The notes under the pieces: generated by a model | The model's input: only the letters and a program-made list of their open reading frames with translations | The model's database searches: none | Told to the model about the DNA's origin: nothing | Program-made: the position numbers and the translations under genes | Part shown: in pieces, positions 15,810 through 56,168 of the stretch | Layout: every line of letters begins with the position of its first letter | Numbering within the stretch: the stretch's first letter is position 1 | NCBI GenBank assembly: GCA_026393755.1 | Contig: JAPKZO010000036.1 | Span: forward strand, 1 to 64,000 | Direction of reading: 5' to 3' | Source: Acidobacteriota bacterium | GTDB lineage: Bacteria > Acidobacteriota > Vicinamibacteria > Vicinamibacterales > JAKQTR01 | Length of the DNA: 64,000 bases

Positions 15810-15825
15810 TGTTCAATTTTGAACA
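15810..15825. promoter_or_regulatory. Inverted-repeat operator S1, kai operon
   Basis: TGTTCAATTTTGAACA, extending to the 18-bp palindrome CTGTTCAATTTTGAACAG (15809-15826). It lies 36 bp before the first gene of the kai operon. A second palindrome, GTTACCAGTAAC, follows at 15840-15851. It is the best match to the motif found at about ten other promoters in the window. Confidence 0.75.
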
Positions 15826-15861: not shown

Positions 15862-16044
15862 ATGACAGACCGCGCAGAGCTCATGCGACTGAGCCTGCAA
15901 CTCGAGCGTGACCTGGTGGCTCAAATGCACCTCAGAGTGCTCTTGACCGCCACCGAGACAACCGTCGCCGGTCGCCGGCTGGAATTGCGAAACCTCAAGG
16001 CTCGCATGGCGCGCCGATCGCCCGGGCCAGGACAAACTGAATGA
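15862..16044 (+). CDS. Small helical protein, first gene of the kai-like operon
   Basis: 60 residues (MTDRAELMRLSLQLERDLVA...), highly charged and almost wholly helical, probably a short coiled coil. Its stop overlaps the KaiC-like start (ATGA, 16041-16044), which shows coupling and argues that it is translated. I recognise no family. It could be a docking or regulatory peptide for the ATPase; that is speculative. Confidence 0.65.
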   Translation: MTDRAELMRLSLQLERDLVAQMHLRVLLTATETTVAGRRLELRNLKARMARRSPGPGQTE

Positions 16045-17798: not shown

Positions 17799-18176
17799 AT
17801 GGCGACCACCAGGATCAAGACGCGGGCGCGGCCCAGTAAGGCCGCCTTCGAAAGCCTCAAGCCGGCCCCCGTCCATCGAGGGGCGAAGCCACCAGGACCG
17901 AAGGCGTGGAAGCTGAGACTCTACGTAGCGGGCCAGACACCCAAGTCGATTTGCGCCTTTGCCAACCTCAACGTGCTGTGTGAAAAGCACTTGAAGGGCC
18001 GCTATCAGATAGAAGTGATCGACCTGCTGGAGCATCCGGAGATGGCGCGCGGCAACCAGATCGTCGCCATTCCAACCCTGGAAATCAAGCTTCCGCAGCA
18101 AGTGCGAAAGATCATTGGAGACCTGTCCAACACCGATCGTGTGCTGGTGGGTCTGGCTCTGCAGCCGGTTGACTAG
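17799..18176 (+). CDS. kaiB: KaiB-like protein 1
   Basis: 125 residues, starting at the base after the KaiC stop. The first ~35 residues are a basic, Pro/Lys-rich extension. The KaiB domain follows: [40 protein letters not shown] and [20 protein letters not shown]. The thioredoxin-like KaiB fold binds the KaiC ring. The IxAxPTL motif with cis-Pro is intact. The N-terminal extension is unusual relative to the ~100-residue family length. Confidence 0.9.
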
Positions 18177-18196
18177 CCCGGCTCGGAAATGTCTGT

Positions 18197-18511
18197 ATGA
18201 AGAAACTCCCGACGAAGTCCAAGGCCCGCGAGCCCCACTACGTTCTGCGTTTGTATGTCAGCCGATCCACATTGAAGTCAAAGCTGGCGATCGAGAACAT
18301 GAAGCGGGTCTGTGAGGAGCACTTGAATGGCCGGTATGACCTCGAAGTCATCGACATTCACGAGCATGCGAATCTGGCCAGAAACGAACAGATTGTGGCG
18401 GTACCGACGCTCATCAAGCGGCTCCCGCTCCCGCTTCGAAGGCTCGTTGGCGACATGTCGGATCTGAACAAGGTGCTCTTTGGACTTGACCTCAGACAGC
18501 AGGGGTCATAG
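18197..18511 (+). CDS. kaiB: KaiB-like protein 2
   Basis: 104 residues, standard KaiB length: HYVLRLYVSRSTLKSKLAIE, GRYDLEVIDIHEHANLARNE, QIVAVPTLIKRLPLPLRRLV. It lies 20 bp after the first kaiB and is divergent enough (roughly half identical by eye) to be an old paralog. Having two kaiB genes per kaiC suggests mixed or alternative complexes. The stop abuts the GTG of the Crp/Fnr gene. Confidence 0.9.
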   Translation: MKKLPTKSKAREPHYVLRLYVSRSTLKSKLAIENMKRVCEEHLNGRYDLEVIDIHEHANLARNEQIVAVPTLIKRLPLPLRRLVGDMSDLNKVLFGLDLRQQGS

Positions 18512-19264
18512 GTGGCAGCAGGCAAGAAGACGTTGGTTCGGCCGATCCGATTGCCCATTGGCGCTCGGGCACGACGTGTGCCCGTCGACGAGCCGGAGGC
18601 GACCGTCGTGGTGACGACGAAGAACGCACCAGTCGGATGGGAAGGCCTTCTGACTCAAAGCTCCAGGGGCAAGACCGCGTTGGAATGCGGCGACAACCAC
18701 ACGATCTTCATGCAGGGACAGCCTGCGGATTCCCTGTACTTGCTCCTGCGAGGCAAGGTGAGGCTCGCGGCGACCACACAGGGCGGCAAGGAAGCGATTG
18801 TCGCGACGCTCGGTTCCGGTCAGTTCTTCGGGGAAGGATGCCTCGCCGGTCAGCCGTCGCGCGTGGTCACGGCGACTTCCGTGGGAGACTGCACGCTAAC
18901 CAGGTTTGAGAAGCCGACCCTGGCACGAATGCTCCACGAAGAGCCGGGACTCGCGGAGACTTTTGTCACGCATCTGCTTTCCCGACTCGTCCGGTACGAA
19001 GCGGATCTGATCGACCAGATGTTCAACTCCAGCGAGAAGCGCCTGGCTCGGATGCTCCTGCTGCTGTCGCATTTTGGGAAGGACAGCACGACCGAAACGG
19101 TCGTGGCCGGCATCAATCAGGAACACCTGGCGCAGATGGTCGGCACGACCCGGTCGCGGATCAACGTGTTCATGAACAGGTTCAGGAAGCTCGGCTTCAT
19201 CGATTACAGCAGTGAAGCCGGACTGACGGTCCATCGTGGCCTTCTCAGCGTCCTGCAGGACTAG
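18512..19264 (+). CDS. Crp/Fnr-family regulator, paralog 1
   Basis: 250 residues, GTG start immediately after the kaiB2 stop. After a ~45-residue leader comes a cyclic-nucleotide-binding-like beta roll (GDNHTIFMQGQPADSLYLLL, GKVRLAATTQGGKEAIV, GQFFGEGCLAGQ), a dimerisation helix (YEADLIDQMFNSSEKRLARM) and a C-terminal HTH with recognition helix TTRSRINVFMNRFRKLGFI. No FNR-type cysteine cluster is seen. The CRP cAMP-pocket Arg-Ser pair is not obvious, so the ligand is unknown. The helix is nearly identical to that of the paralog at 34156. Placement in the kai operon suggests it is the output or partner of the KaiC module. Confidence 0.9.
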   Translation: MAAGKKTLVRPIRLPIGARARRVPVDEPEATVVVTTKNAPVGWEGLLTQSSRGKTALECGDNHTIFMQGQPADSLYLLLRGKVRLAATTQGGKEAIVATLGSGQFFGEGCLAGQPSRVVTATSVGDCTLTRFEKPTLARMLHEEPGLAETFVTHLLSRLVRYEADLIDQMFNSSEKRLARMLLLLSHFGKDSTTETVVAGINQEHLAQMVGTTRSRINVFMNRFRKLGFIDYSSEAGLTVHRGLLSVLQD

Positions 19265-27517: not shown

Positions 27518-29896
27518 TCAACCTGCTTCCTGCGTGATGTCCCACTTCCAGTTCCGAATCTCCGGCAGATCCTCGCCGTATGTGTTGATGTGTGCCTTGT
27601 GCTCGACTAGCTTGTCCTTGAGTTGCTGCTTCAGACAGAGCCCCCGGTTACCGGTCTGCGGCAGGCGGTCGATGGTATCCATCACAAGGTGGAAGCGGTC
27701 CAGATCGTTCAACACCGTCATGTCGAAGGCGGTGGTGATCGTTCCTTCTTCCTTGTAGCCGCGGACGTGGATGTTGTCGTGGTTGGTGCGGCGGTAGGTC
27801 AGCCGGTGGATCAGCGACGGGTAGGCATGGAAGGCGAAGATGACCGGCTTGTCCCTCGTGAAGATCTCGTCAAAATCCCTGTCGCTCAATCCGTGCGGGT
27901 GCTCTGTTTGCGGCTGCAGCTTCATGAGGTCGACGACGTTGACCACCCGGATTCTCACATCGGGCAGATGCTGCCTCAGGATGGAGACTGCCGCGAGCGT
28001 CTCCAGCGTCGGCACGTCGCCACAACAGGCCATCACCACGTCGGGCGCCACGCCCTGGTCGTTGCCGGCCCACGGCCAGACGCCGATGCCTGCGGTGCAG
28101 TGCGCGACGGCGGCGTCCATTGCCAGCCACTGCGGCGCCGGGTGTTTGCCCGCGATGACGACGTTGACGTAGTGGCGGCTGCGCAGGCAATGATCCATCA
28201 CCGACAGCAGGCAATTCGCGTCCGGCGGCAGATACACGCGCACGATTTCGGCCTTCTTGTTCATGACCACGTCGATGAAGCCGGGATCCTGATGTGTGAA
28301 GCCGTTGTGATCCTGGCGCCAGACATGCGAGGCCAGCAGGTAGTTGAGCGAGGCGATCTTCGGTCGCCACGGCAGGCGCGACGTCACCTTGAGCCACTTG
28401 GCGTGCTGATTAAACATCGAGTCGACGATATGGATGAACGCCTCGTAGCAGTTGAAGAGCCCGTGCCGCCCGGTGAGGAGGTAGCCCTCGAGCCAGCCCT
28501 CGCATTGGTGCTCGCTGAGCATTTCCATCACGCGCCCGGTGGGAGCAAGGAACTCGTCGTTCGGCACCATCGCGGCGCCCCATTGGCGGTTGGTGACTTC
28601 AAAGAGGGCTTCGAGGCCGTTGGAGAGCGTCTCGTCAGGGCCAAAGACCCGGAAGTTCCGCTGTTCACTGTTCAGCTTCGCCACGTCGCGCAGGAACCGG
28701 CCGAGCACATGCGTGTCGCCGATGCCGCGCACTCCCGGCGAGAGCACGTCGACTGCGTAGTCGCGAAAGTCCGGCATCCGCAGATCACGGAGCAGCCTGC
28801 CGCCGTTGGCGTGCGGATTCGCGCCCATGCGTCGATCGCGTGTGGGCGCAAGTTCCGCCAGTTCCGGCTTCAGGCGGCCCTGCTCATCGAAGAGCTCCTG
28901 CGGCCGGTAGCCCCTCAGCCAGTCTTCCAACTGCTTGAGGTGCTCGGGATGCGTGGCCGGATCGGAGAGCGGCACCTGATGTGATCGGAAGGTGCCTTCA
29001 ACCTTCAGGCCATCGACCATCTTCGGTCCCGTCCAGCCCTTCGGTGAGTCAAGAACGATCATCGGCCAGCGCGGACGCGTGATGTTGCCGCGGACGCGGG
29101 CGTCCTGCTGGATCTGTATGATCTGCTCCACCGCCGTATCGAGCGTCGTGGCCATGGCCTCATGCATCCGCGCCGGATCGTGGCCCTCGACAAACAGCGG
29201 CGTCCATCCGTAGCCGAGAAGCAACTGTTTCAGTTCCTCGCGGGTGATGCGGGCGAGGAGGGTCGGGTTGGAAATCTTGTAGCCGTTGAGATGCAGGATC
29301 GGCAGCACCGCGCCGTCGGTGGCCGGATTGAGAAACTTGTTCGAATGCCACGCCGTGGCGAGCGGTCCGGTTTCCGCCTCGCCATCGCCGACGACGCAGG
29401 CGACGACGAGATCGGGATTGTCGAACACCGCCCCAAACGCATGGCTGAGCGAATAGCCGAGCTCACCACCCTCATGGATCGAGCCCGGGCACTCCGGCGA
29501 AGCGTGGCTGGGGATGCCTCCGGGAAATGAGAACTGAACGAACAGCTTCCGCAGCCCCGCCTCGTCCTGGCTGATGCCGGGGTAGATCTCGCTGTACGTG
29601 CCCTCGAGGTACGTGTTGCTCACAACCGCCGGGCCTCCGTGCCCGGGGCCGGAGACGTAGATCATGTTGAGGTTGTACTTCTTGATGACCCGGTTCAAGT
29701 GCACATAAATGAAGTTCTGCCCCGGGGTCGTGCCCCAGTGTCCCAGCAGCATGTGCTTGACATCCGCAAGCGTGAGCGGTCGCTTCAGCAGCGGATTGTC
29801 GCACAGGTACATCTGGCCGACCGACAGATAGTTGGCGGCGCGCCAGTAGGCATCCATCCGATAGAGCAGTTCCGGCGCGAGTGTGCGGGTGGTCAC
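27518..29896 (-). CDS. xfp: Xylulose-5-phosphate/fructose-6-phosphate phosphoketolase
   Basis: 792 residues, full family length. Motifs: [74 protein letters not shown], the thiamine diphosphate/Mg site [20 protein letters not shown] and [11 protein letters not shown]. It cleaves xylulose 5-P (or fructose 6-P) with phosphate to acetyl phosphate plus glyceraldehyde 3-P (or erythrose 4-P). It lies three bases after acetate kinase, so the acetyl phosphate made is converted to acetate with ATP gain. Confidence 0.95.
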
Positions 29897-29899
29897 GGC

Positions 29900-31102
29900 T
29901 TACCTCTTCCGTGTGGAGCCCAGCTTGAGGACGCGGGTGACGGACTTCGCAATCATCAGTTCCTCGTCGGTGCGGATGACGCGCACGGTGACGCGACCGG
30001 CGTCCCGTGAAATCAGCGGCGCATTCTCCGCATTGCGCTTCCGGTGCAGTTCGATGCCAAGAAAGCCGAGTCCGTCGCAGATCCGCTCCCGGATGGGCGG
30101 TGCGTGCTCGCCGATGCCTCCCGCGAAAACGAGCGTGTCCAATCCGCCGAGCGCCGCGGCGAAGGAACCGATCCACTTCTTCGCCTGATAACAGAAGAGC
30201 GCCACGGCGTCCGCCGCCCGCGCGTCGACGGCTTCGTCGGCGAGCAGGTCGCGCAGGTCGGAACTCGTCCCCGATACTCCGAGCAGACCGGATTCGTGGT
30301 TCACCATCTGCTGAAAGCGCCCCGCGGTCATGTGGTCGGCGTGTGCGAGGTAGTACAACAGGCCTGGATCGAGGTCTCCCGTGCGTGTGCTCATCACCAG
30401 TCCGGCCGTGGGCGTAAAGCCCATGCTGGTCTCGATGCTCTTGCCGTGGCGCACGGCGGCGAGGCTGGCGCCATTGCCGAGATGCGCGAGGATCACGCGG
30501 CCCTTCGTGGCCGCGGGATCAAGGCGGCCGAGTTCTTCCATCAAGTACGCGTAGGACAGGCCGTGGAAGCCGTAACGCTCGACGCCCCTGGCCTGGTAGC
30601 GCCGCGGGATTGGCAGCAACCTGGCGACCCGCGGCATCGAGCGGTGAAACGCCGTATCGAAGCATGCCACCTGGGGCAGCGTCGGATACCGCCGCAGGCA
30701 CGCTTCGATCATCGCGATCTCGCGTGGCAGATGTTCCGGGGCATAGGGCGAGATCCGGCGCAGTTCCGCGAGCAATCTCGGCGTGACCCGCTCCGGTTCG
30801 GCGTGCTTCATGCCGTGCACCACGCGGTGTCCCGCAGCATTGACCGACGCGAAGATCGGCTGGGCCTCAAGCCAATCGAACAGGAAACCCACCGCAGTGC
30901 GGTGGTCGGCGGCGGCAAGGCGGCGGGGAACCGGCGGTGTCCCCGTCGCATTGTTGACGATGAGGTTCGTGCCGCTCAATCCGATGCGATCGATCTTCCC
31001 ATCAAGCAGCCGCCGCGGTGTGTCGCCTGCTTCGTACACCGCGAACCGAATGGTCGACGAGCCGCCGTTGATCGTCAGGACGCAGGGCAACGCCACGTGC
31101 AT
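29900..31102 (-). CDS. ackA: Acetate kinase
   Basis: 400 residues from the ATG at 31102 (MHVALPCVLTINGGSSTIRF). Family motifs: NGGSST at the N-terminus, VERYGFHGLSYAYL, ILAHLGNGASLAAVRHGKSI, STRTGDLDPG and VFAGGIGEHAPPIRERI. It makes ATP and acetate from acetyl phosphate. First gene of the ackA-xfp pair, and possibly cotranscribed with the Met-rich peptide gene, which ends 42 bp upstream on the same strand. Confidence 0.93.
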   Translation of the reverse strand: MHVALPCVLTINGGSSTIRFAVYEAGDTPRRLLDGKIDRIGLSGTNLIVNNATGTPPVPRRLAAADHRTAVGFLFDWLEAQPIFASVNAAGHRVVHGMKHAEPERVTPRLLAELRRISPYAPEHLPREIAMIEACLRRYPTLPQVACFDTAFHRSMPRVARLLPIPRRYQARGVERYGFHGLSYAYLMEELGRLDPAATKGRVILAHLGNGASLAAVRHGKSIETSMGFTPTAGLVMSTRTGDLDPGLLYYLAHADHMTAGRFQQMVNHESGLLGVSGTSSDLRDLLADEAVDARAADAVALFCYQAKKWIGSFAAALGGLDTLVFAGGIGEHAPPIRERICDGLGFLGIELHRKRNAENAPLISRDAGRVTVRVIRTDEELMIAKSVTRVLKLGSTRKR

Positions 31103-31144
31103 GGGGTCAGGCCCACGAGGAATCATCGCCTGAGGCCGAGGCAC

Positions 31145-34155: not shown

Positions 34156-34830
34156 ATGGTCAAGCATCAAACTCGCGTCAATCCGCCGAAGCAACGACCA
34201 TTCGACATCCGTGCGTTCCTCGAGTCGGGAGGCGTCGCCGGGAAGGTCGTCACTCGTCAGAGCGGCGACGTGGTCTACTCGCAGGGCGAACCCTGCGACA
34301 GCGTCTTCTATATTCAGAAAGGCACGGTGAAGCTCGGGGTCCTCTCCCACGAAGGCAAGGAAGCCATTGTGGCGATGGCGGGGCCGGCGGATTTCTTTGG
34401 TGAAGGGGCCCTGGCGGGACAGGTCCTCCGGATGGCGACCGCGACTGCCACAAGTGTGAGTTCGCTCCTCGTCGTCGAGAAGCAGAAGATGCTCCGGCTG
34501 CTTCACGACCAGCACGAGCTCTCGGATCGGTTCCTGGCCTATGTCCTGTCGCGCAACATTCGCGTCGAGGCCGATCTTGTGGATCAACTGTTCAATTCCA
34601 GCGAGCGACGGCTGGCCCGGACGCTGCTCCTGCTCGCCCGCTATGGCAAGCAGGACGCCCCGCATCGGGTATTGCCCAAGATCTCGCAGGAGATGCTCGC
34701 GGAAATGGTCGGCACGACCCGCTCGCGCGTGAACTTCTTCATGAACAAGTTCAGGAAGCTCGGTTTCATCGAATACAACGGCGGACTCAAGGTCAACGAC
34801 TCCCTGCTGAGCATCGTGCTGCACGACTGA
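34156..34830 (+). CDS. Crp/Fnr-family regulator, paralog 2
   Basis: 224 residues. Beta-roll effector domain (~30-120: RQSGDVVYSQGEPCDSVFYI, KGTVKLGVLSHEGKEAIVAM, DFFGEGALAGQ), dimer helix (RVEADLVDQLFNSSERRLAR) and C-terminal HTH with recognition helix TTRSRVNFFMNKFRKLGFI. Like paralog 1 it lacks an FNR-type cysteine cluster. The two share nearly the same recognition helix and so should bind the same operator. It follows the copper ATPase but is separated by 325 bp, so it has its own promoter. Confidence 0.9.
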   Translation: MVKHQTRVNPPKQRPFDIRAFLESGGVAGKVVTRQSGDVVYSQGEPCDSVFYIQKGTVKLGVLSHEGKEAIVAMAGPADFFGEGALAGQVLRMATATATSVSSLLVVEKQKMLRLLHDQHELSDRFLAYVLSRNIRVEADLVDQLFNSSERRLARTLLLLARYGKQDAPHRVLPKISQEMLAEMVGTTRSRVNFFMNKFRKLGFIEYNGGLKVNDSLLSIVLHD

Positions 34831-45240: not shown

Positions 45241-46296
45241 ATGTACCGGTTTGTCCAGACAATCACTGCGGTGGCCGTCGGCGCCGTGGTGCTCTACAGG
45301 CTGGAACGCATTGCTGTCGCGTTGATTGTCGCGATGTTGTTTGCGTACCTGATTGCCCCGCTCGTGCAATCCGCCGAGGTTCCGTTACGCGCCGTGAGAA
45401 TCCCGCCGCGCCTGTCGCGAGGGGTGGCCATCGGCATCATCTACGCAATCATCGCCGGGGTCGCGTGGGGCGGAGCCGCAATTCTCCTTCCAACCGTGTC
45501 CCAGCAAGTCGATGAGGCCGCGTCGCTGGCGCCAGGCTACGCGCAGTCACTGCGCACGTGGCAGGGAGGGTGGTCGAGGTACTACCAGCGGTTGAGACTG
45601 CCGATCGAAGTGCGACGACGCGTCGACCAGGGGTTGGGCGACGTTGGCGATCGCATCGTCGAAGGTGTACGGAACTCGCTCGTCGCCGGCTTCGGCATCC
45701 TCTCGTACCTGCCGTGGCTGGTGTTGATTCCCGTTCTGTCATTCTTTCTCCTGAAAGATGCCGAGCGTCTCAGGCAGTCCACCCTCGACGCGCTTCCAGA
45801 ACGCTTTCGCGGGCGCGGATACCACCTGTTCGACGAGCTGAACACGACGCTGGCCGCCTACATTCGCGCGCAACTTCTGGCGTGCCTGCTGGTCGGCGTC
45901 GTCTGCGGGCTCGGGTTTGCAGCGCTCGGTCTGCCGTATGCGGTCCTGCTCGGCGTGCTCGCGGGTGTGGTCGAGTTCATTCCGTTTGTCGGCCCGATTC
46001 TGATCATCGTCGTCGCCGGCATCGTCGGAGCACTGCACGCACCAATGCTGGCGGTCTATTCGACCGGTTTCCTCGTGATCATGCGGGTGATCGAAGACTA
46101 CGTGATCTATCCACGCCTGATGGGAAACGGTGTCCATCTGCATCCATTGGCCGTGATCGTCGCGGTACTCGTCGGCTTCGAACTAGGTGGACTCGCCGGG
46201 ATATTCCTGGCGGTTCCGGTCGTCGCAGCCTTGTCGGTGGCCTGGCGTCATGGGCTCGGGTGGCTGAGCCAGCCGCACGGCCCCGTTGAGTTATGA
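45241..46296 (+). CDS. AI-2E/PerM-family transporter
   Basis: 351 residues from the ATG at 45241. About eight membrane helices with the family hallmarks: VALIVAMLFAYLIAPLVQ, RGVAIGIIYAIIAGVAWGGA, ILSYLPWLVLIPVLSFFLLK, GVVEFIPFVGPI and DYVIYPRLMGNGVHLHPLAV. Members export AI-2 (TqsA), act as Na/H antiporters or are of unknown substrate. The stop overlaps the methyltransferase start, so the two are cotranscribed. Confidence 0.9.
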   Translation: MYRFVQTITAVAVGAVVLYRLERIAVALIVAMLFAYLIAPLVQSAEVPLRAVRIPPRLSRGVAIGIIYAIIAGVAWGGAAILLPTVSQQVDEAASLAPGYAQSLRTWQGGWSRYYQRLRLPIEVRRRVDQGLGDVGDRIVEGVRNSLVAGFGILSYLPWLVLIPVLSFFLLKDAERLRQSTLDALPERFRGRGYHLFDELNTTLAAYIRAQLLACLLVGVVCGLGFAALGLPYAVLLGVLAGVVEFIPFVGPILIIVVAGIVGALHAPMLAVYSTGFLVIMRVIEDYVIYPRLMGNGVHLHPLAVIVAVLVGFELGGLAGIFLAVPVVAALSVAWRHGLGWLSQPHGPVEL

Positions 46297-47165
46297 GCGA
46301 CTGGGGCAGGCCGGGAGGACGTGCCGTGCTCACTCGCGGGCGACGCGCACGCAAGCCTGTCCGTCTGACGCCCGCCAAGCGGTATCGGCGCTTCTGGGCC
46401 GACCTGGGCGACCGGTTTCCCGACCTGGGCGGGGCAGCCTCGACGCGGTACTACGCAGACAACGAACGCCGTCTCTTCACTGATCACTTTCCGTCGCTGA
46501 AGGGCCTGAGCCTCTTCAAGACCGACCTCTGGGACGAAGCCAGAAACACGCGTATCCTGGTCTGGGCTGGCGAGCAGGGCGCCCGCGTCTACGGCATCGA
46601 CATCTCCGAGCCCACCGTGATCCGGGCTCGCGCCGCCTTCGAGCGCAAGCCGAACGGTTGTCACGGCACGGTGGCCGATCTTCGCGAGCTGCCCTTCCTC
46701 GACGCGAGCTTCGACGCGATCTACTCCATGGGAACGATCGAGCACTTCGACGAGACCCAACGGGCGATTGAGGAGATGGCTCGCGTGCTCAAGCCGGGCG
46801 GGCGCGCCATCGTCGGCGTGCCGAATCGTTACGATCCGTTTCTCCGGCCCGTCTTCGTGGCTGCGCTCCAGGCTATGGGGCTCTATGCCTATGGCGACGA
46901 AAGATCCTACTCCCGCCGTGCCCTGAGGAAGATGCTCGAGCGGGCCGGCCTCGAGGTGGTTGCCGAAACGGCGATTCTGTTTGTTCCGGGCTGGCTCAGA
47001 ATGATTGATCTCGCGTGTCATGCGTGGTGCCGGCCGCTCGCGACGGTCACTGGCGCCCTCGTCTGGCCGTTCGCCTTTCTCGATCGCCACTGGCCAGCCG
47101 TGCGGCGACATGGGTATTTACTCGCGACGATCGTCGTGAAGCCGGACGCTGCGGCCGCGGGATGA
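46293..47165 (+). CDS. SAM-dependent class I methyltransferase
   Basis: 290 residues, overlapping the PerM stop by four bases (ATGA). The Rossmann methyltransferase pattern shows RILVWAGEQGARVYGIDISE (motif I, degenerate glycine loop), TVADLRELPFLDASFDAIYS and EEMARVLKPGGRAIVGVPNR. This is typical of ubiquinone/small-molecule Methyltransf_11. The C-terminus has a hydrophobic segment (GALVWPFAFLDRHWP). Substrate unknown; perhaps envelope lipids or polysaccharide, given the neighbours. Confidence 0.85.
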   Translation: MSDWGRPGGRAVLTRGRRARKPVRLTPAKRYRRFWADLGDRFPDLGGAASTRYYADNERRLFTDHFPSLKGLSLFKTDLWDEARNTRILVWAGEQGARVYGIDISEPTVIRARAAFERKPNGCHGTVADLRELPFLDASFDAIYSMGTIEHFDETQRAIEEMARVLKPGGRAIVGVPNRYDPFLRPVFVAALQAMGLYAYGDERSYSRRALRKMLERAGLEVVAETAILFVPGWLRMIDLACHAWCRPLATVTGALVWPFAFLDRHWPAVRRHGYLLATIVVKPDAAAAG

Positions 47166-47186: not shown

Positions 47187-48569
47187 TCACCGTTCCTGAA
47201 CCCGACCCTTCACACCTGGCGTGTGCACGTCCAGCCGCGCAGCCATCACCGCAAAGAGAAGCCAGTAGTGCCTGCAGTTCAGCAGATCGGTCGAGATCGC
47301 CTCGATGAGGAACGCCGTTCCGGCTCCGGCGTAGGCAGCGGCCTCCCACCGGAGAAGCGCGGATCCGGCCAACAGACGGCGGATCGTCGAGCCGCCCGCG
47401 ATCAGGATCAACAGGAGAGCCGCAAGTCCCGCTGCCCCGAGTTCGGCCACCGGCTTCAGGTAGGTCGAGTGAGGGGTGATGAGCCAGATCGTGCTCGGAA
47501 ACCGACCCTCGCGCTGCAGACCGGATGTGAAGGCCTCTTGACCTGCGGGCCCAACACCTGCAGGCCACGAGCGTTCAATCGCGAGAAGGCTGGCGCGCTT
47601 GTTGAAGAGGTACGTCGTCGGCATCACGACCCAGTTGTCGTCGCGCCACCGAAACGACGCGAGCGGCGTGCCGCCGACCAGTTGAGCCGCGCTCATGTTC
47701 GCGATGGCGGTTCCCCGCAGCACCATCACGTGCGATCCCAAAGTGAAGACGGATGCCACGATCACACACACTGCGACAGCCAGCCCCAGCCGCACGCGTG
47801 GGCGGTGGGGTCGGGGTCCCCGCCGGATCGGTTGAGCCAACGCCCACATCACGCTTAGAGCGGCAGCCAGACACATCGCGGTCTTCGAGAACGTGGCGCC
47901 GAGACCCAGCACCAGCAAGAAGACGAGCGCACGATCGCGGCGCCGCCATCCCTGCCTCATTCTGCTCGCGACAAACAGGGGAACCGCCATCAGAATCATG
48001 CTCGCCAGCATCTGCGGGCCGGCAGTGAGCGCCTGCGCCCGGGCAGCGTGTCCGAGGTAGGGAACAGGCGTCAGCGCGACGGTCGCCAGTCGATTGGCAA
48101 GGCCGGCGTATGACGCAAGGCTGCCGGCGATCCCGATCGCCGCGGCGACGGCGGCCGAGTACCCGAACCAGTCGCCAAAGCGATCGAGAAGACGCGGTGT
48201 CGCCGTGAGGCGCACGACGAGGTAGAGACCGGTCAGAGAGACAGCCCCCAAAGTTTCGATGAGCCCGTCTCGGCTGCGTGGCTCGCTCGACCACGCATAC
48301 GCCAGCACGTTGGCGGCGAGCCATGCGGCCGCCGCAACATCGGTAAGGGCGAACCGCCACTGCACGCTTCCCCGCAACCACATGACAGCCGAGGCGCCGA
48401 CCAGTAACACCAACACGATTTCAGGGGGTTGGAGTTTGACGCCCAGCCACGGAAGAACCCAGAGACGGTGGAAGGGAAGAACCACGAGGTACCCCGCCCA
48501 GAGCGTCGCGATTGCCGCAGACGCGACATCCGCGCCAGGCGAACGCCTCGACGGGTCATCTGTTGCCAT
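47187..48569 (-). CDS. O-antigen ligase/Wzy-like polymerase
   Basis: 460 residues from the ATG at 48569; a TTG at 48578 overlaps the upstream stop. About eleven membrane helices and the Wzy_C/WaaL loop region (SWPAGVGPAGQEAFTSGLQR, TPHSTYLKPVAELGAAGLAA). HSTYLKPVAELG corresponds to the conserved H-N/S-x-Y/F-L...E-x-G motif of O-antigen ligases. It probably links or polymerises surface glycans. It is in an operon with the double exosortase upstream. Confidence 0.85.
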   Translation of the reverse strand: MATDDPSRRSPGADVASAAIATLWAGYLVVLPFHRLWVLPWLGVKLQPPEIVLVLLVGASAVMWLRGSVQWRFALTDVAAAAWLAANVLAYAWSSEPRSRDGLIETLGAVSLTGLYLVVRLTATPRLLDRFGDWFGYSAAVAAAIGIAGSLASYAGLANRLATVALTPVPYLGHAARAQALTAGPQMLASMILMAVPLFVASRMRQGWRRRDRALVFLLVLGLGATFSKTAMCLAAALSVMWALAQPIRRGPRPHRPRVRLGLAVAVCVIVASVFTLGSHVMVLRGTAIANMSAAQLVGGTPLASFRWRDDNWVVMPTTYLFNKRASLLAIERSWPAGVGPAGQEAFTSGLQREGRFPSTIWLITPHSTYLKPVAELGAAGLAALLLILIAGGSTIRRLLAGSALLRWEAAAYAGAGTAFLIEAISTDLLNCRHYWLLFAVMAARLDVHTPGVKGRVQER

Positions 48570-48574
48570 CCCAA

Positions 48575-50056
48575 TCAACCGATCCGTGACGCATCAGCCG
48601 TGCCGTCGCGTTCCGCCGCCCCGGCCCGCACGGGCCGGCGAAGCAGCCAGTCGATGTTCGCGATGGCCAGGACGACGAGCAGCGGGCCGATCACCGCCCA
48701 CGCGCGCACGTCGCGGACGTGGAGCGTGAGATCAGAACGGCTGGCAAGGAGGCGCAATGCCACAAAGGTCGCCATCTGGACGAACTCGAGGAGTGCCAGG
48801 CCGATTATCAATCGTCTCCACCCGATGGCGGCGAAGGCCGCGACCCACACCGCCATGAAGAGGCCAACCTGAAAGGCGGGAAGCAGCATGACGGCGCCCT
48901 GCGGATCGTCGAGCGGCTTGCCTGCCCCAACACCAGCAGGCACAGCGCCGCCGACAAGTTCCGCCGCGCGAGTCAGGACGTGCGCGTACGGTACGCCGAG
49001 CAGATATGCGACCAGCACGCCCAGCGTCATGCCCGTCAGTGCCAGACGCGCGCCTGTGCCGCCGGCGCCGTGACGCCAGACCGCGGCGGCGGCGACGACC
49101 GCGGCGGCGAGAAGCAGCTGGTAGAACGCGTGGATCAGGAAGAACGGTGATGCCACCAGTGCGGCCGGGAGTGCCACCACCAGCAGCCGGGCGATGCCGA
49201 GACCGATGAAGAGCGGTGCCGCGGCGGCCAGACCCAGCGCGCACCGGCGCCACGTGCCGGCATAGGCGATGACCGCCGCCAGGTAGATCGGGATGAGCGG
49301 CGTGGAGATGCACTCCTGGGTCACCTCGAAACCGCCCCTGGATGTCCACAGCACATTGACTGCAGCATGAGCCTCAACGCCGAAGACAGAGAGAACCGTT
49401 GCCGCTGCACGGCTGATGAAGGCAGCCACCGCGAGAACGCCAGCGCTCTCGACGTAGAGCGGCGACGCGGCGGTAGACAGAAAGAGCAACGCCCCCGCGA
49501 CAATGATGAAGCGCGGCGTCAGGCGGGCCGAGGAGAACGCCGCGACCGGCGGCGTGACGCGCGTGACGGATTCGCCAACATGATTCCGGTCTCCGGTGTC
49601 GCCGTCTGCGCGGCGCATCCAGCCGAAGACGTACGCCGCGACGGCGAGGATGAGCGCCGCGGGCCATGCGTAGAGGTGGAGTATCTCGAACCACACCGGC
49701 GAGACGGCGACGCGGCCGAGCGTGCCGATGCGCAGCGTGTTGAGGCCGAGGACCAGCATCAGGCCGCCGCCGGCTCCGGCCAGCCGCATGCGCCGACTGG
49801 TTGGGTACGCGAGGATGGCGCCAGCACAAATCGCCAGCGCATCGGCGCCGCTGCACGAGAGAGTGACGTCGATGGAGCCGGCGGGGGCTCCACAAAACGT
49901 CACCGCGAGCCGTGACTCAAGTCGGGTAAGAGGCAGCAGCGCGTGTGTCTCGAACCAGGGGAGGCGCAGAAGGCCGAACGAACCCAGGCTCCAGGCCGTC
50001 GCTCGCAGGGCGAAACTAGCGGCCCGGGTCGGGCTGTGGACAGTGTCCGTCGGCAC
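48575..50056 (-). CDS. Double exosortase-like integral membrane protein
   Basis: 493 residues from the GTG at 50056 (AGGAGG upstream). Two exosortase-type active-site sets occur in one chain. Half 1 (~60-150): Cys in SCSGADALAICAGAIL, Arg in LNTLRIGTLG, His in EILHLYAWP. Half 2 (~215-310): Cys in TQECISTPLIPIYLAAV, Arg in GLGIARLLVVALP, His in IHAFYQLLLA. Exosortases are membrane Cys proteases/transpeptidases that process PEP-CTERM-like tails. About 14 membrane helices in all. It lies opposite an IPTL-CTERM-like protein and upstream of an O-antigen ligase gene. Confidence 0.75.
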   Translation of the reverse strand: MPTDTVHSPTRAASFALRATAWSLGSFGLLRLPWFETHALLPLTRLESRLAVTFCGAPAGSIDVTLSCSGADALAICAGAILAYPTSRRMRLAGAGGGLMLVLGLNTLRIGTLGRVAVSPVWFEILHLYAWPAALILAVAAYVFGWMRRADGDTGDRNHVGESVTRVTPPVAAFSSARLTPRFIIVAGALLFLSTAASPLYVESAGVLAVAAFISRAAATVLSVFGVEAHAAVNVLWTSRGGFEVTQECISTPLIPIYLAAVIAYAGTWRRCALGLAAAAPLFIGLGIARLLVVALPAALVASPFFLIHAFYQLLLAAAVVAAAAVWRHGAGGTGARLALTGMTLGVLVAYLLGVPYAHVLTRAAELVGGAVPAGVGAGKPLDDPQGAVMLLPAFQVGLFMAVWVAAFAAIGWRRLIIGLALLEFVQMATFVALRLLASRSDLTLHVRDVRAWAVIGPLLVVLAIANIDWLLRRPVRAGAAERDGTADASRIG

Positions 50057-50119
50057 GTCGAACCTCCTGGATCGAGACACGGCGCGGACGGAATATACCC
50101 AGCCGTCTCGGGATCGGGA

Positions 50120-50135
50120 TGTTCAATAGGGAACA
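50120..50135. promoter_or_regulatory. Inverted-repeat operator S6
   Basis: TGTTCAATAGGGAACA, exact half-sites, between the double exosortase (64 bp) and its presumed substrate (103 bp). Confidence 0.7.
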
Positions 50136-50237
50136 GCCGGTGCCGCGGCGCTGCCATATAGTCACAACGAATAGCGCCGATCCGATATCGGCCGGACCTG
50201 ATACTCCGCGACGTACGTCGGAACAGGGAGATGCAAC

Positions 50238-51053
50238 ATGAAGCGTCTATGCTTCAGCCTGGTTGTGAGTGTGGCATCCGCCGCGCTGCTCGTCGGTTCG
50301 TCCTCCGCACTGGCCCAGGTGGCCCCGACACTTGGAACTGCGGGCCAGTTCGGCGTACTCGCGAACTCGGCCGTGACCGGGTCCACAGGATCCGGCACGG
50401 TGGTCAGCGGCGACGTGGGTTCTTACCCGACTCCCACCATCAACAATTTTCCTCCTTCGACGGCCGCTGCGCCTTACACGGTTCACCGCTCCGCTGATGG
50501 AGTCGTACAGCAGGCGCACACGGACGCCAAGACGGCGTACGATTTCCTGGCCGGCCAGGGCGGAACGACGTTGAATGACAATCTGAGTACCAACGGAATC
50601 ATCGGCCCGGGTGTCTATTCACTGGGTGCGGCAGACCTGCCGGCATCGACCACCCTCACGCTCAACGGATCGGGCATCTTCATCTTCAACGTTGCGAGCA
50701 CGCTCACGATGAACACCAGTTCAGCGGTGACCGGCACCGCGAATCCGTGCAACGTGTACTGGCGGGTCGGCACGTCCGCAACGCTCAATGGAACGTCCTT
50801 CATCGGCACCGTCATCTCGGACGCGAGCATCACCGTGGGGGGAGGCACCGTGTCCGGGCGTGTCCTGGCTGGAACCGGTGCAACAGGCGCGGTGTCGATG
50901 CCTGGTTCCGGCGGCAACACGATCGGCGGCTGCAGCACCACCCCCGTTCCGACGCTACCGCAGTGGGCGGCGGCGTTTCTCCTCGCGGGACTCCTGGGCG
51001 TCGGGTACCTTCGGCTGCGGCGCCGATCTGCCGGCACCCAGCCAACGGCGTAA
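50238..51053 (+). CDS. DUF3494 (ice-binding-like) protein with IPTL-CTERM-like sorting tail
   Basis: 271 residues. Signal peptide (LVVSVASAALLVGSSSALAQ), then a DUF3494-like beta solenoid (~30-235: TAGQFGVLANSAVTGSTGSG, VVSGDVGSYPT, NGSGIFIFNVASTLTMNTSS, VYWRVGTSATLNGTSFIGTV). The C-terminus is VPTLPQWAAAFLLAGLLGVG followed by YLRLRRRSAG. This is a tripartite sorting signal: motif, helix, Arg cluster. It resembles the IPTLxxW tail of exosortase substrates. DUF3494 proteins can bind ice or act as adhesins. Probably surface-anchored via the exosortase encoded divergently. Confidence 0.85.
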   Translation: MKRLCFSLVVSVASAALLVGSSSALAQVAPTLGTAGQFGVLANSAVTGSTGSGTVVSGDVGSYPTPTINNFPPSTAAAPYTVHRSADGVVQQAHTDAKTAYDFLAGQGGTTLNDNLSTNGIIGPGVYSLGAADLPASTTLTLNGSGIFIFNVASTLTMNTSSAVTGTANPCNVYWRVGTSATLNGTSFIGTVISDASITVGGGTVSGRVLAGTGATGAVSMPGSGGNTIGGCSTTPVPTLPQWAAAFLLAGLLGVGYLRLRRRSAGTQPTA

Positions 51054-51068: not shown

Positions 51069-51503
51069 GTGGCCGTCTCGGTACCAAAGCGACTCGGGAT
51101 CGGCGCTCTCGTCCTGCTGGGCACGTTCCTGCTGGGGTACGTGCCCGCCTCTCTCAATGCCCGCGACGCGCGGGCGGAACAGGAGCGGCTCACGCAGCAG
51201 TTGATGTTGACTGGACTCGAGGTCCAACTCGGGATGATGAGTTATGAAGCGAACCGAGATAACTACGGGCTCGCCGCCCAGCTGGCCACGCCGTTCTTCG
51301 ACGCCGTGAGAGGCGCGATTGCGCGTCCAGCCAACCAGGACGCGGCATCTTCGTTACAGGCCGTGATCGCTCGCCGCGATGAGATTACCTCGGACCTCGC
51401 CCGGGCCAACCCCGTGGTCAAGGGCAAGCTCGCCCAATTGTACGCAGACTGCTATCGTCTGACGCAGACTCCGGGCGCCGCCCACCCGACCGTTTCTCGT
51501 TGA
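51069..51503 (+). CDS. Membrane-anchored small periplasmic protein
   Basis: 144 residues, GTG start at 51069 with GAGGAGGGG upstream, 15 bp after the sorted protein. One N-terminal helix (LGIGALVLLGTFLLGYVPAS), then a helical, charged domain (ARAEQERLTQQLMLTGLEVQ, VIARRDEITSDLARANPVVK). No family recognised. The tight spacing suggests a shared transcript with the DUF3494 protein. Confidence 0.65.
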   Translation: MAVSVPKRLGIGALVLLGTFLLGYVPASLNARDARAEQERLTQQLMLTGLEVQLGMMSYEANRDNYGLAAQLATPFFDAVRGAIARPANQDAASSLQAVIARRDEITSDLARANPVVKGKLAQLYADCYRLTQTPGAAHPTVSR

Positions 51504-51896: not shown

Positions 51897-54224
51897 CTAA
51901 TGAGGCCTCTCGCGAATTGCCTCGAGCAGAGGCGACACTGCGGTCTTGTTGTCGATCATCGGCGCGGCTTTGGGCCGGCCAGTCTGAGCCTTGGCGGACA
52001 CTGCTCCTGGGGGCGTCGCGGCAGGGGAGGCTCCAGGCCGCGCGGTGCCGCTCGCCTCCGCCGGCGCCAGCAGCGCCAGGTACTTGTCAATCCCGTCCTC
52101 GATCTCGCGGGGAAAGTGCGGCGCCTTTCCGGCGAGCTGGTCCTTGTAGATGCGGAGCATGATTTCGCGGAAGATCGGCAACGCGGTGCGCCCGCCAGTC
52201 TCGCTCCCTCCCAGGGGGCGATTGTCGTCAAAGCCGATCCGGACCGCCACCGTGATCCCCGATGCCCCGTAGGTGGATCCCACAAAGAGCGCATCGCGGA
52301 AATCGCTCGTCGTTCCGGTCTTGCCCATCACCGGGACCGGAAAATCCCGGGAATCGAGACTGTGGGCCGTGCCATCAGGGAGACGCACGACGCCCCTGAG
52401 CCCTTCCTGAATCAACCGCAGGGCGTCGGAGTCAATCTGACGCCCGCGCAGCGGCGCGCCGTACAACAGGTTGCCGGAGACGTCGGTCACGCTCTCGATC
52501 ACGTGCGGTTCGGCCAGCACGCCCGAAGCAATGGCGCGATAGGCGTCCGCCAACTCGAGCAGCCGCACCTCTGACGCCCCGAGCGCCGTTGACAGATACG
52601 GCTGCAGCGGCGATCGGATCCCCATCTCGTGGGCGATCCGGATCACCGTGCCGACGCCAATCTCGCGAGTGATCCACACGGCCACGGCATTGCGCGACTC
52701 GGCGAGGGCCTGGCGCATCGGGATGGGGCCCTTGAACTGGTTGTCGTAGTTGGCGATCCACTTGACGCCGCCGGAGTTTCCGAGCGGCACCTCGATCGGC
52801 TCGTCCGGCACGGTTGTGTCTATATCCAGGCCGGCTTCGAACGCGGCCAGGTACACGGGCGGCTTCATCGCGGAGCCCGGCTGGCGCAGCGAACCGGTGG
52901 CGCGGTTGTAGTCGGAGTAGCGCGTATCGCGATCCCGGTAGACCTGCCGCCCGCCGACCTCCGCCAGAATCGCCGCTTCCGCGTTGCCGAGCACGACCAC
53001 CGATCCCTGGATCAGCCCCTTCATCTTCGGATGCCGCTTCTCGTAGCTCGCCAGACCGTGCTCGAGCGCTTCGTTCACGATCGTCTGCACGCGCACGTCA
53101 ATGGTCGAACGGACGACGATCCGTCCCTGGAACAGGTCTTCGACGCCGACGCCGCTCTTGCCGCGCCGGGTCAGTTCGTCGAGGACGTGCTCGACCGCTG
53201 CCGGTGCATCGGTCTTGATCGGGCTCAGCGCCACGACGCGGATGGGTTCGCCCTGGCAGCGCTTCGCCAGTTCTTCGGGAATGGCTCCGCTGCGCGCCAT
53301 GAGGCCGAGGATCTGATTGCGGCGAGCGAGTGTCCGCCGGTTGCCTGCCACCGGGGCGTAGTCGCGCGGCGACTTGCTGATCGCCGCCAGCAGCGCGGCG
53401 TTGCCCGCGTCGGCCGGTGTATAGCTCGCCAGGGGTTTGCCGAAGTAATACTCGGAGGCGGCGGCGAAGCCGTAGCGGCCGTTGCCCAGATAGATGAAGC
53501 TGGCATAGCGCGCAAAGATCTCGCGCTTGGCCCGCTCCTGCGATCCATATCGCCTGCGCATCTCCTGTTCGAGCCACAGCGTGAGGCGGACCTCTTCCAT
53601 CTTTCGCAGGAGTTTGTTCACGGCTGACGCGCCCAGGACCACGGAGAGGAGCCGGGTTGGGGCCAGACCGGCGTGGAACCGCACGTCTGCGTCCGGCCGG
53701 CTCGTCAGCGTCTGCAGGAAGTACCCGCGGACCAGTTGCTGCGTCAGCGTGGAACCCCCTTGCGGCAGGAGCAGCCGCAAGCCATGGCCGCCCTTCCACC
53801 ATTCACTGAACGAGCGCGCCGCCATCTTCTGGATCACCCGCGGCAGCGCGCTGTAGTCCACGCCCGAATGAGAGAAGAAGCGCTTGTCCTCGGCGGCGAT
53901 GATGGCCTGGCGCAGGACGGTCGGTACCTCGTCATAGGTGACGACTCGGCGGTACTCATACGCCACCTCGATCAGCGCCTTGCCGTGCACGTCGTTGACG
54001 ACGCCGGTGGTGGGAGGCTCGAACCGGATGAACGGCTCGAGGTCCGGCACGCCGGAACGGTCGAAGTAGACGTGGTGGACCAGCCACGCGCCCGTCAGCA
54101 GCACGAGCGCCACGGGGAAGATCGCCGCACCGAGGAGCACGACACGCCGTCGCCGCGTGGCTGTCAGCCGGGTAGCCAGGCGCCGTGCGACGCGGAAGAG
54201 TGATCGGATTCGAGCCGGCAGCAT
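51897..54224 (-). CDS. Class A penicillin-binding protein (bifunctional PBP1-type)
   Basis: 775 residues from the ATG at 54224. An N-terminal membrane anchor (VVLLGAAIFPVALVLLTGAW) precedes a glycosyltransferase GT51 domain (~95-270: AIIAAEDKRFFSHSGVDYSA, GGSTLTQQLVRGYFLQ) and a transpeptidase domain (~390-700) with active Ser in GSAMKPPVYLAAF, SRN motif and KTG in VMGKTGTTSDFRDALFVG. A 2B-like UB2H segment between anchor and GT51 is short. It polymerises and crosslinks peptidoglycan. Operator S8 is 60 bp upstream. Confidence 0.92.
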   Translation of the reverse strand: MLPARIRSLFRVARRLATRLTATRRRRVVLLGAAIFPVALVLLTGAWLVHHVYFDRSGVPDLEPFIRFEPPTTGVVNDVHGKALIEVAYEYRRVVTYDEVPTVLRQAIIAAEDKRFFSHSGVDYSALPRVIQKMAARSFSEWWKGGHGLRLLLPQGGSTLTQQLVRGYFLQTLTSRPDADVRFHAGLAPTRLLSVVLGASAVNKLLRKMEEVRLTLWLEQEMRRRYGSQERAKREIFARYASFIYLGNGRYGFAAASEYYFGKPLASYTPADAGNAALLAAISKSPRDYAPVAGNRRTLARRNQILGLMARSGAIPEELAKRCQGEPIRVVALSPIKTDAPAAVEHVLDELTRRGKSGVGVEDLFQGRIVVRSTIDVRVQTIVNEALEHGLASYEKRHPKMKGLIQGSVVVLGNAEAAILAEVGGRQVYRDRDTRYSDYNRATGSLRQPGSAMKPPVYLAAFEAGLDIDTTVPDEPIEVPLGNSGGVKWIANYDNQFKGPIPMRQALAESRNAVAVWITREIGVGTVIRIAHEMGIRSPLQPYLSTALGASEVRLLELADAYRAIASGVLAEPHVIESVTDVSGNLLYGAPLRGRQIDSDALRLIQEGLRGVVRLPDGTAHSLDSRDFPVPVMGKTGTTSDFRDALFVGSTYGASGITVAVRIGFDDNRPLGGSETGGRTALPIFREIMLRIYKDQLAGKAPHFPREIEDGIDKYLALLAPAEASGTARPGASPAATPPGAVSAKAQTGRPKAAPMIDNKTAVSPLLEAIRERPH

Positions 54225-54283
54225 GTCGTGTGTCCTTCGCGTTCCTGCTTGACGCCAGCATGCCGAAGCGGAGCACGGACGTC

Positions 54284-54299
54284 TGTTCACTGTTGAACA
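54284..54299. promoter_or_regulatory. Inverted-repeat operator S8
   Basis: TGTTCACTGTTGAACA, exact half-sites, 60 bp upstream of the PBP start. Confidence 0.7.
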
Positions 54300-54348
54300 C
54301 TGTGGCTCCGCCGCCCCGCGCCACAGGAAGATCCAGCTGACGGGGGCG

Positions 54349-54364
54349 TGTGCATAAGTGAACA
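54349..54364. promoter_or_regulatory. Inverted-repeat operator candidate S9
   Basis: TGTGCATAAGTGAACA; left half one off, right half exact. It is 50 bp from S8 edge to edge and 161 bp upstream of the start at 54525. Confidence 0.45.
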
Positions 54365-54524
54365 GACGGCGTCACTCTTCGCATCTAGCATGTTGCGGAA
54401 GGACAAGTGGCGCGACCGTGTCGGCAGTGTTGAGGGTCGCAGGTTCCGGGCAAGCATCGATTGGCCGCCGAAACGGCGCCGTCGGGTGGCTCATCCAGAT
54501 GCCGTATTCACAAGGAGGTCAGCA

Positions 54525-56168
54525 ATGATAGGTGTGCTTCGTCGTCGTTGTACCGTTGGTGCCGTCGCGGTCGTTGCGGGACTCGCGCTGGCATCAGGGG
54601 CCGCCGGGCAGGGCAGTAGCACGGGTGCCATGCACGAGGCCACTCATCTCGGCGGGCCGACGGCGTTCTACGCGCCACCCTTGAGATCGGCCGCCAACCT
54701 GAAACAGATGGCGGCAAGAAAGGGCATGGCGGACGACATCCGGTTGGTGCTGACCGAGAGCGGCATTCCGGAAACGGCGGACGCCGTGCTGGCGACCCTC
54801 GCCGGGGCCGGCGCTTCAGTAAAGGGCGGCTTCTGCGACGAGGCGACACCAGCCGATGGCGTCATCGTGGAATGCGAGTTCCGGAAGGGATCAACCCTGC
54901 TGTGGATGGCCTACCGGCCCAACATCGGGAAACGAGTCCGCACGCCGGGCAGGCTCGAAGCCGTCAGATGGGCAGGCCCCAAGCCGTTCAAGGCATTTCT
55001 CTTCCGCGTGACGAACGACTACAAGATCTACACATTCATCCTGCCGATGGTTTGTTCCAACCTGTCGCTCATGTCGGTCACAGAGATCCCTGGTGAGCCG
55101 GTGACCGTATCGATTGACCGGGTGTGCGATCCGGCCACGGGCAACATACGGACCACCGTGAGGGCCAGCAGCAAGGACATGGCGCGCGTGCAGCGGGTGA
55201 GCGTGGCGATCAACGGCCAGCCGGCCGGTGAGTTGACCGCGTCGGCATGGACAGTCACCACCACCAGATCCGGCGACTACGCGTTCGACGCCAGCGATAC
55301 GAAGGGCAGACCGTATACCCTCGCGCCGCGAACGATGCGCGTGGACGCATGCCAGCCGCCGCCGCCGCCGCCGCCCAAGACGGTGATCGCGCCGACGTGC
55401 AGCTTTGTGTTGTCCTCCCTTCGAGTGAAGGGCGGCTACGAGATCTCGGTTGACGCGACGAAGAGCTCAACCGGTACGAGCAACGTCGCTCCCGCCATCA
55501 CGGTGGACCTGCGCGACGACAAGGGCGCAACGGTCGGACAGACCACGCTCGACAGCACCCTCATCGGGAAGATTATGGTGCGGCGGCACGGCATCTATCA
55601 CGGCACCGCGACGGTGAGGACAGCGCAGCCCTTCGAGGCTGGCAACTTCCGCTACGAGGGCACGGCCACGTGCGAGGCGAGCGTCACGATCGAGAAACCC
55701 ACGGGCCCAGCGGTCTTCTTCGACGTCCTCGGCGGCAAGGAAAGACGCGTACGCCCGGATGCTGACACGGGCGCGGATTTCGCCCAGTGCTCGCCGCTGG
55801 CCGGCGTGAAGTTCGGGGTCGCGAAGCGATTCCGGAACGACGTTGAAATAGCCGGAGCCGTCGGCGTGGCGATCAGTCTGGTCACCGACAGCCAGAAGGT
55901 CAAGGAGTCGGAACTCTTTGTCGATGCCGAGGTGAACAAGTATGCGTCCGGCGGCGCCTTCATCGGCACCGGACTCTCGCTCTGGGACATTACGCGGAGC
56001 GACACGTGGACGCCTGCCTGGCTTCTGCACTTTGGCCTCCCGCTGTCGAAAGGCGAGAAGCACATGGTGCTCTTCATGGTCGAGGGCCGTCTGTTCTTCG
56101 ACCACATCGGCGATCCCAGCAACAACTACCTGGTGTGGGCTGGATTGCGGGTGAGACTGGGGCGGTAA
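54525..56168 (+). CDS. Secreted protein of unknown function, proline-hinged two-domain
   Basis: 547 residues from the ATG at 54525 with a perfect AAGGAGG upstream and a signal peptide (RCTVGAVAVVAGLALASGAAG). The N-terminal ~250 residues are a mixed domain with Cys pairs (KGGFCDEATPADGVIVECEF). A poly-Pro hinge (CQPPPPPPPKTVIAP, ~280) follows. Next comes a Thr/Val-rich Ig-like region and a C-terminal beta-strand region (LLHFGLPLSKGEKHMVLFMV, NYLVWAGLRVRLGR) that looks like barrel strands ending in a charged residue. It may be an outer-membrane protein. No family recognised. Confidence 0.65.
   Translation: MIGVLRRRCTVGAVAVVAGLALASGAAGQGSSTGAMHEATHLGGPTAFYAPPLRSAANLKQMAARKGMADDIRLVLTESGIPETADAVLATLAGAGASVKGGFCDEATPADGVIVECEFRKGSTLLWMAYRPNIGKRVRTPGRLEAVRWAGPKPFKAFLFRVTNDYKIYTFILPMVCSNLSLMSVTEIPGEPVTVSIDRVCDPATGNIRTTVRASSKDMARVQRVSVAINGQPAGELTASAWTVTTTRSGDYAFDASDTKGRPYTLAPRTMRVDACQPPPPPPPKTVIAPTCSFVLSSLRVKGGYEISVDATKSSTGTSNVAPAITVDLRDDKGATVGQTTLDSTLIGKIMVRRHGIYHGTATVRTAQPFEAGNFRYEGTATCEASVTIEKPTGPAVFFDVLGGKERRVRPDADTGADFAQCSPLAGVKFGVAKRFRNDVEIAGAVGVAISLVTDSQKVKESELFVDAEVNKYASGGAFIGTGLSLWDITRSDTWTPAWLLHFGLPLSKGEKHMVLFMVEGRLFFDHIGDPSNNYLVWAGLRVRLGR

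Follow-up and report, generated by a model that had tools for sequence, protein, structure and literature searches.

The mechanism of exosortases has, to our knowledge, been inferred almost wholly from comparative genomics, and we know of no case in which the acceptor of their targets has been established. Nor are we aware of an exosortase whose chain combines two complete active sites, in a comparison that did not extend to the standard survey (Haft 2012). In a study of Nostoc sp. HG1, ice-binding proteins with a DUF3494 domain were reportedly found to carry PEP-CTERM tails. For archaeosortase A, which serves PGF-CTERM proteins in Haloferax, it has been proposed that a Cys thioester forms and that the C-terminus is then handed to a lipid amine (PMC7157517). 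A sorting enzyme with one adjacent target, called a "dedicated system", is exemplified by a rhombosortase whose one GlyGly-CTERM target is encoded next to it (PMC3237569). Our literature search returned no paper that joins an exosortase with IPTL-CTERM or DUF3494, nor one that describes a tandem arrangement. We describe here such an arrangement from a soil-type Acidobacteriota bacterium. Positions refer to the window, i.e., the whole stretch of 64,000 nucleotides that was analysed.

Architecture and distribution of the tandem exosortase

The ORF of the tandem exosortase lies at 48575..50080 on the minus strand and encodes 501 residues from a GTG at 50080, or 493 residues from a GTG at 50056, from which residues are numbered here. 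The longer form may be the genuine one because the sequence R-[FS]-x-V-P-T, upstream of the 493-residue start, is conserved in relatives. The initial annotation had described a 493-residue protein with two exosortase active sites; both sites were recovered, but the length may be 501 residues and a third domain had been overlooked.

The whole protein scored 40.4 bits with TIGR04178, above the cut-off of 23 for superfamily membership, and 60.4 bits over two stretches with the XrtH model TIGR04177, whose cut-off of 86 was not reached. When each half was searched separately, as had been suggested, the first gave 40.9 bits with TIGR04178 (cut-off 23), 44.2 bits with XrtM and 43 bits with XrtH. The second matched nearly the full XrtH model (36.3 bits, E 5e-9) and scored slightly below the TIGR04178 cut-off of 23, at 20.3 bits. 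The C-terminal 166 residues matched none of the models searched. Profile comparison aligned the two halves with each other (E 3.7e-7), with C68 and C249, and R109 and R290, in register. The earlier proposal of a fused exosortase is thus borne out, since both halves match exosortase models and align in register. Neither an XrtH by the curated cut-off nor a single-domain enzyme, the protein belongs to the exosortase superfamily but has a new architecture.

Domain 1 (residues 9-165; 49562..50032, minus strand) is a canonical exosortase domain, with the catalytic-type residues C68 (49853-49855), R109 (49730-49732) and H127 (49676-49678). Domain 2 (residues 174-330; 49067..49537, minus strand) is a divergent one, with C249 (49310-49312), R290 (49187-49189) and H309 (49130-49132), so that the Cys-Arg-His set does occur twice in one polypeptide, as first noticed from the sequence. 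When both domains were aligned jointly with single-domain exosortases from other Acidobacteriota (24 sequences), the C, R and H columns of all three groups coincided. The three residues of domain 1 are conserved in 27/27 orthologues and in 24/24 single-domain exosortases. Among 28 domain 2 sequences, C and H are present in all and R in 27, the gap being a deletion in genome G090. That gene (L046:8201-9502) has lost about 50 residues of domain 2 in frame, R290 included, which could reflect either a natural variant in which domain 2 is dispensable or a fault in the assembly. Domain 1 also contains a second invariant Cys, C77 (49826-49828), nine residues past the catalytic one, the equivalent of which is missing from most single-domain exosortases.

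Because both Cys-Arg-His sets are conserved, both active sites are probably in use. Their surroundings differ. Domain 1 retains the canonical C-[SN]-G ... N-x-x-R ... H motif of single-domain exosortases in the form CSG, whereas domain 2 has kept C, R and H, lost the Gly and the Asn, and acquired its own invariant T-x-E-C-x-x-T-P-L. In profile comparisons domain 1 is far closer than domain 2 to the single-domain enzymes (E 3.6e-30 vs 7e-11). These differences support the asymmetry suspected at the outset. They also speak for an alternative in which domain 1 is the sole peptidase and domain 2 uses its C/R/H for a different reaction, e.g., a second transfer or another substrate class, or serves as a structural partner. 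If domain 2 were purely structural, however, one would not readily expect C249 and H309 to be invariant and R290 to be absent only from the G090 deletion. We regard this alternative as plausible, if somewhat improbable, and favor the use of both sites.

Family-mean hydropathy and loop charge yielded 12 transmembrane (TM) helices arranged as 3 x 4. The mean charges of the 13 loops, in order, are +1.5, -1.5, +2.2, -0.3, +2.6, about -1, +2.2, -0.2, +2.9, -1.3, +1.9, +0.2 and +2.5, and with the positive loops inside, all six Cys/Arg/His residues face outside. A hydrophobic peak at residues 212-223 in domain 2 was read as an interfacial helix, because counting it as a TM segment would place C249 inside. 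Domain 3 (residues 333-473; 48638..49060, minus strand), which lacks the Cys, Arg and His residues, is probably a degenerate exosortase repeat, mainly because its four-TM and charge plan equals that of domains 1 and 2. Its weak profile match (score 22.3; highest score among 40 block shuffles 17.8, reversed sequence 11.9) is suggestive of a sequence relation, although not significant by profile comparison alone. It has invariant residues of its own, D384, Q386, Q396, R451 and P458. The helix order of an AlphaFold2 model of the enzyme (pLDDT 81.6, pTM 0.62) agrees with this topology. Solved structures gave neither a sequence match nor a significant Foldseek match. Placement of the fold by VIA-align was rejected, as Z did not exceed 5.3, in the range of unrelated helical bundles.

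The tandem protein is found in about 29 of 193 genomes of the class, at 34-75% identity. In a sample of 396 genomes of the phylum, matches to the whole tandem model were limited to the class, and no tandem exosortase was seen outside it; the hits there were single-domain ORFs matching domain 1 and, more weakly, domain 2, each as one domain. A pattern scan of contig records recovered only Acidobacteriota-like sequences, with two exceptions, a short contig whose title gives Limnocylindrales and a record without a phylum name; the patterns were specific to this family, so that a more distant tandem enzyme might occur elsewhere. In a tree, all domain 1 copies form one group (96/90) and all domain 2 copies another (100/100), consistent with a single old fusion, which appears to date to the ancestor of the class (Vicinamibacteria-like Acidobacteriota). 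The arrangement is conserved across the whole class.

A tailed DUF3494 protein as probable partner of the enzyme

The gene divergent from the exosortase gene (50238..51053, plus strand) encodes a putative substrate of 271 residues, a DUF3494/Ice_binding protein (PF11999, 94.1 bits; cut-off 28.7) with an N-terminal segment resembling a signal peptide. As the initial annotation had stated, it ends in VPTLPQW, a helix and an Arg cluster; the C-terminal sorting tail, PVPTLPQW followed by a hydrophobic helix and RLRRR, was located by DNA pattern and tail profile at 50943..51035 (plus strand), with the motif at 50946-50966. Its description as IPTL-CTERM-like holds for the V-P-T-L motif and for three orthologous DUF3494 tails, which pass the IPTL-CTERM model PF18203 (24-25 bits; cut-off 20.8). 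The window's tail, however, scored 7.8 bits with TIGR04174, below the cut-off of 20.5, and PF18203 was not among the matches listed for the window's protein.

The genome (4.43 Mb, 100% complete) contains one such tail. The DNA pattern [IV]PTLxxW occurs once, at the motif; the tail profile matched one protein (E 2.8e-13; next 1.24); and PF11999 likewise matched the 50238..51053 product alone. The genome count of IPTL-CTERM-type tails that had been proposed as a check therefore came to one, beside the tandem exosortase. A search for another exosortase H that could explain the tail found no other XrtH-like enzyme. One further exosortase of the genome exceeded its cut-off; it is encoded on contig C28 next to PEP-CTERM proteins, resembles XrtD/XrtW and carries EpsI. 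The genome encodes at least nine PEP-CTERM proteins, and the window's DUF3494 protein is not among the nine TIGR02595 matches. A weak exosortase match on contig C32 was discarded because it sits in a glycosyltransferase-like ORF. With a single VPTLPQW tail in the genome and the XrtD-like enzyme beside PEP-CTERM proteins, each of the two exosortases would have its own tail class. These counts support the view that, in the window's genome, the tandem exosortase has a private substrate, the DUF3494 protein, apparently its sole target.

Enzyme and substrate also co-occur across the class. DUF3494 is present in 15 of the 29 genomes with the tandem enzyme and in 7 of the 164 others (p 9e-10), and tailed DUF3494 genes mostly lie beside the tandem exosortase. 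Tails of the form V-P-[TSA]-L-[P] followed by a helix and Arg residues adjoin the enzyme in 17/29 loci, in variable gene order; no adjacent tail was found in the other 12, some of which are cut by contig ends. Strong tail matches (E < 1e-8) were confined to genomes with a complete or partial tandem enzyme, but since the tail profile (A3) was derived from the enzyme's neighbors, only the absence of tails elsewhere counts as independent evidence. The partial enzymes are those of G076, truncated within domain 2 by the end of its contig, and of G048, where a domain 3 fragment is all that remains. The DUF3494 proteins of G123, G146 and G148, genomes without the tandem enzyme, are tail-free. G053 and G057, which do have the tandem exosortase, encode additional, distant DUF3494 paralogues with PEP-CTERM tails, and one domain type is thus served by two sorting systems.

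Incidental adjacency, with the DUF3494 protein merely tail-anchored in the membrane and the exosortase acting on other targets, would fit the score of the window's tail under the IPTL-CTERM cut-off. The co-occurrence statistic, the repeated adjacency across gene orders and families, the operator shared by the two genes (see below) and the tail-free DUF3494 proteins of genomes lacking the enzyme all argue against it, and we consider it very improbable.

The idea of a dedicated exosortase fits the window's genome, where one tail, one DUF3494 protein and one tandem enzyme are found and the genes are adjacent, but not the whole family. In family f14 it is not DUF3494 proteins but other surface proteins (fn3, Ig-like) that carry the tails, and a genome can have up to 15 of them; therefore, one-to-one pairing is not general. 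The several VPALPL-type tails of f14 genomes, together with the different motifs of the two domains, could mean that each active site serves a tail class of its own. The window's genome and several others nevertheless retain both sites while showing a single matching tail, which makes this doubtful, and we rate it as distinctly unlikely.

Neighboring genes and a shared operator

The end of the exosortase ORF is overlapped by a gene for an O-antigen ligase/Wzy_C-like membrane protein (47187..48578, minus strand). The ligase gene reported to follow the exosortase is thus present, although its PF04932 score falls just under the cut-off (30.4 bits, E 3.9e-7; cut-off 31.7); its product is likely a remote Wzy_C member that narrowly misses that threshold. 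It has a homologue in G036 (E about 1e-203), and in these two genomes a Wzy_C-like ligase lies nearby instead of the YfhO-like GT-C protein (YfhO match below the Pfam cut-off) encoded by an overlapping gene behind the exosortase in 12/29 loci. Convergent to the ligase gene is that of a class I SAM-dependent methyltransferase (46293..47165, plus strand; PF08241, 78 bits), homologues of which, most with E 1e-98 or better, lie near the tandem exosortase in 18/29 loci, counting the window. On the other side, the substrate gene is followed by one for a small protein (51069..51503, plus strand); G004 and G009 have homologues of it close to their tandem exosortases. The conserved GT-C or ligase and methyltransferase neighbors suggest that the tail may be transferred to a glycan or lipid.

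A palindromic operator, TGTTCAATAGGGAACA ("operator S6"), lies between the divergent genes at 50120..50135 and forms a Crp-type 5-6-5 dyad. The claim that the two genes share it proved sound, such sites being far more frequent in the window than chance predicts (11 matches vs 0.6 expected). In a stricter form, the palindrome has eight distinct sites in the genome, five of them within a stretch of about 50 kb on this contig, and exact copies occur near the exosortase in the G004, G057 and G090 loci. Another palindrome, CGACGTACGTCG (50209), was rejected as an operator because its frequency is at chance level.

Sites of the form TGTTCA-N5-GAACA are found at 15810, 31285, 45175, 50120, 54284 and 54349 in the window and at 66148 on the same contig. 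They precede a KaiC gene (16041), a gene for an AI-2E family transporter (45148) and the exosortase/DUF3494 pair, as well as a pair encoding a penicillin-binding protein and an unknown protein (51900-56165). From their positions, they appear to mark a local regulon. Behind the operator of the KaiC gene, an apparent operon (16041-19261) encodes KaiC, two KaiB-like small proteins (identified by eye) and a Crp-family regulator (18512-19261), which is a candidate for the operator-binding protein. The window encodes a second Crp-family regulator at 34156-34827. Since Crp-family sites share the 5-6-5 form, these two genes may be linked to the operator. Elsewhere in the window lie phosphoketolase-like and acetate-kinase-like genes (27521-31144, judged by eye) and a gene for a HipA_C-domain protein with a possible N-terminal HTH (14013-15305).

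Proposed sorting pathway and comparison with known systems

We think it likely that the tandem exosortase is the center of a dedicated sorting system that combines cleavage, transfer to an acceptor, use of both active sites and shared operator control. The sequences show the two complete active sites and their conservation, the topology, the operon and operator, the co-occurrence across the class and, in the window's genome, the one-to-one pairing; from these we infer catalysis, division of labor, acceptor and regulator as follows. The signal peptide would export the DUF3494 protein, and the C-terminal helix would hold it in the inner membrane with VPTLPQW on the outer face. There the 12-TM enzyme, with one canonical active, one divergent active and one degenerate repeat, would cut at VPTLPQW via a Cys thioester. 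The new C-terminus would pass to an amine or to a polyprenyl or glycolipid acceptor, whose synthesis or modification would fall to the GT-C protein or ligase and the methyltransferase; both cleavage at VPTLPQW and transfer are expected by analogy with archaeosortase A. The transfer would either free the DUF3494 protein or anchor it at the surface. Domain 1 would perform the common exosortase reaction and domain 2 would have an altered specificity, while the Crp-type operator between the genes would place enzyme and substrate under joint control. The two sites of the three-repeat chain might also act sequentially on one substrate, with domain 1 cleaving, domain 2 performing transfer or re-ligation and the third repeat degenerate. 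We know of no sortase-like enzyme with such a division of labor between two different active sites, and we hold this sequence of steps to be unlikely.

A single enzyme and target, a defined operon and two sites per chain make the dedicated system compact enough for reconstitution. The presence of both active sites in one polypeptide makes single-site mutants feasible, and the candidate acceptor pathway comes down to one methyltransferase and either a GT-C protein or a ligase. The related tail-free DUF3494 proteins found where the tandem enzyme is absent provide a natural control.

Among described enzymes, XrtH (TIGR04177) is the best or near-best model for both halves and has the same Cys-Arg-His set, but it has just one domain, of about 158 positions, whereas the tandem enzyme comprises two such domains and a third. 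The tail shares with IPTL-CTERM (TIGR04174/PF18203) the V/I-P-T-L-x-x-W motif followed by a helix and an Arg tail, and differs from it by an extra Pro (PTLPQ) and its sub-threshold TIGR04174 score. The XrtD/XrtW enzyme with a C-terminal EpsI on contig C28 belongs to the same superfamily, is also a fusion of about 500 residues and serves C-terminal tails. However, it combines one exosortase domain with EpsI and acts on PEP-CTERM tails, and its C-terminal half is unrelated to that of the tandem enzyme. The Nostoc sp. HG1 proteins similarly combine an ice-binding-type domain with an exosortase-type tail, but theirs is reportedly a PEP-CTERM tail in an ordinary exosortase system with no tandem enzyme. 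Archaeosortase A, the source of the mechanistic analogy, is a single-domain archaeal enzyme with a different tail. The rhombosortase system, finally, resembles that of the window's genome in having one enzyme and one target encoded by adjacent genes, although its enzyme is an unrelated serine protease with one active site.
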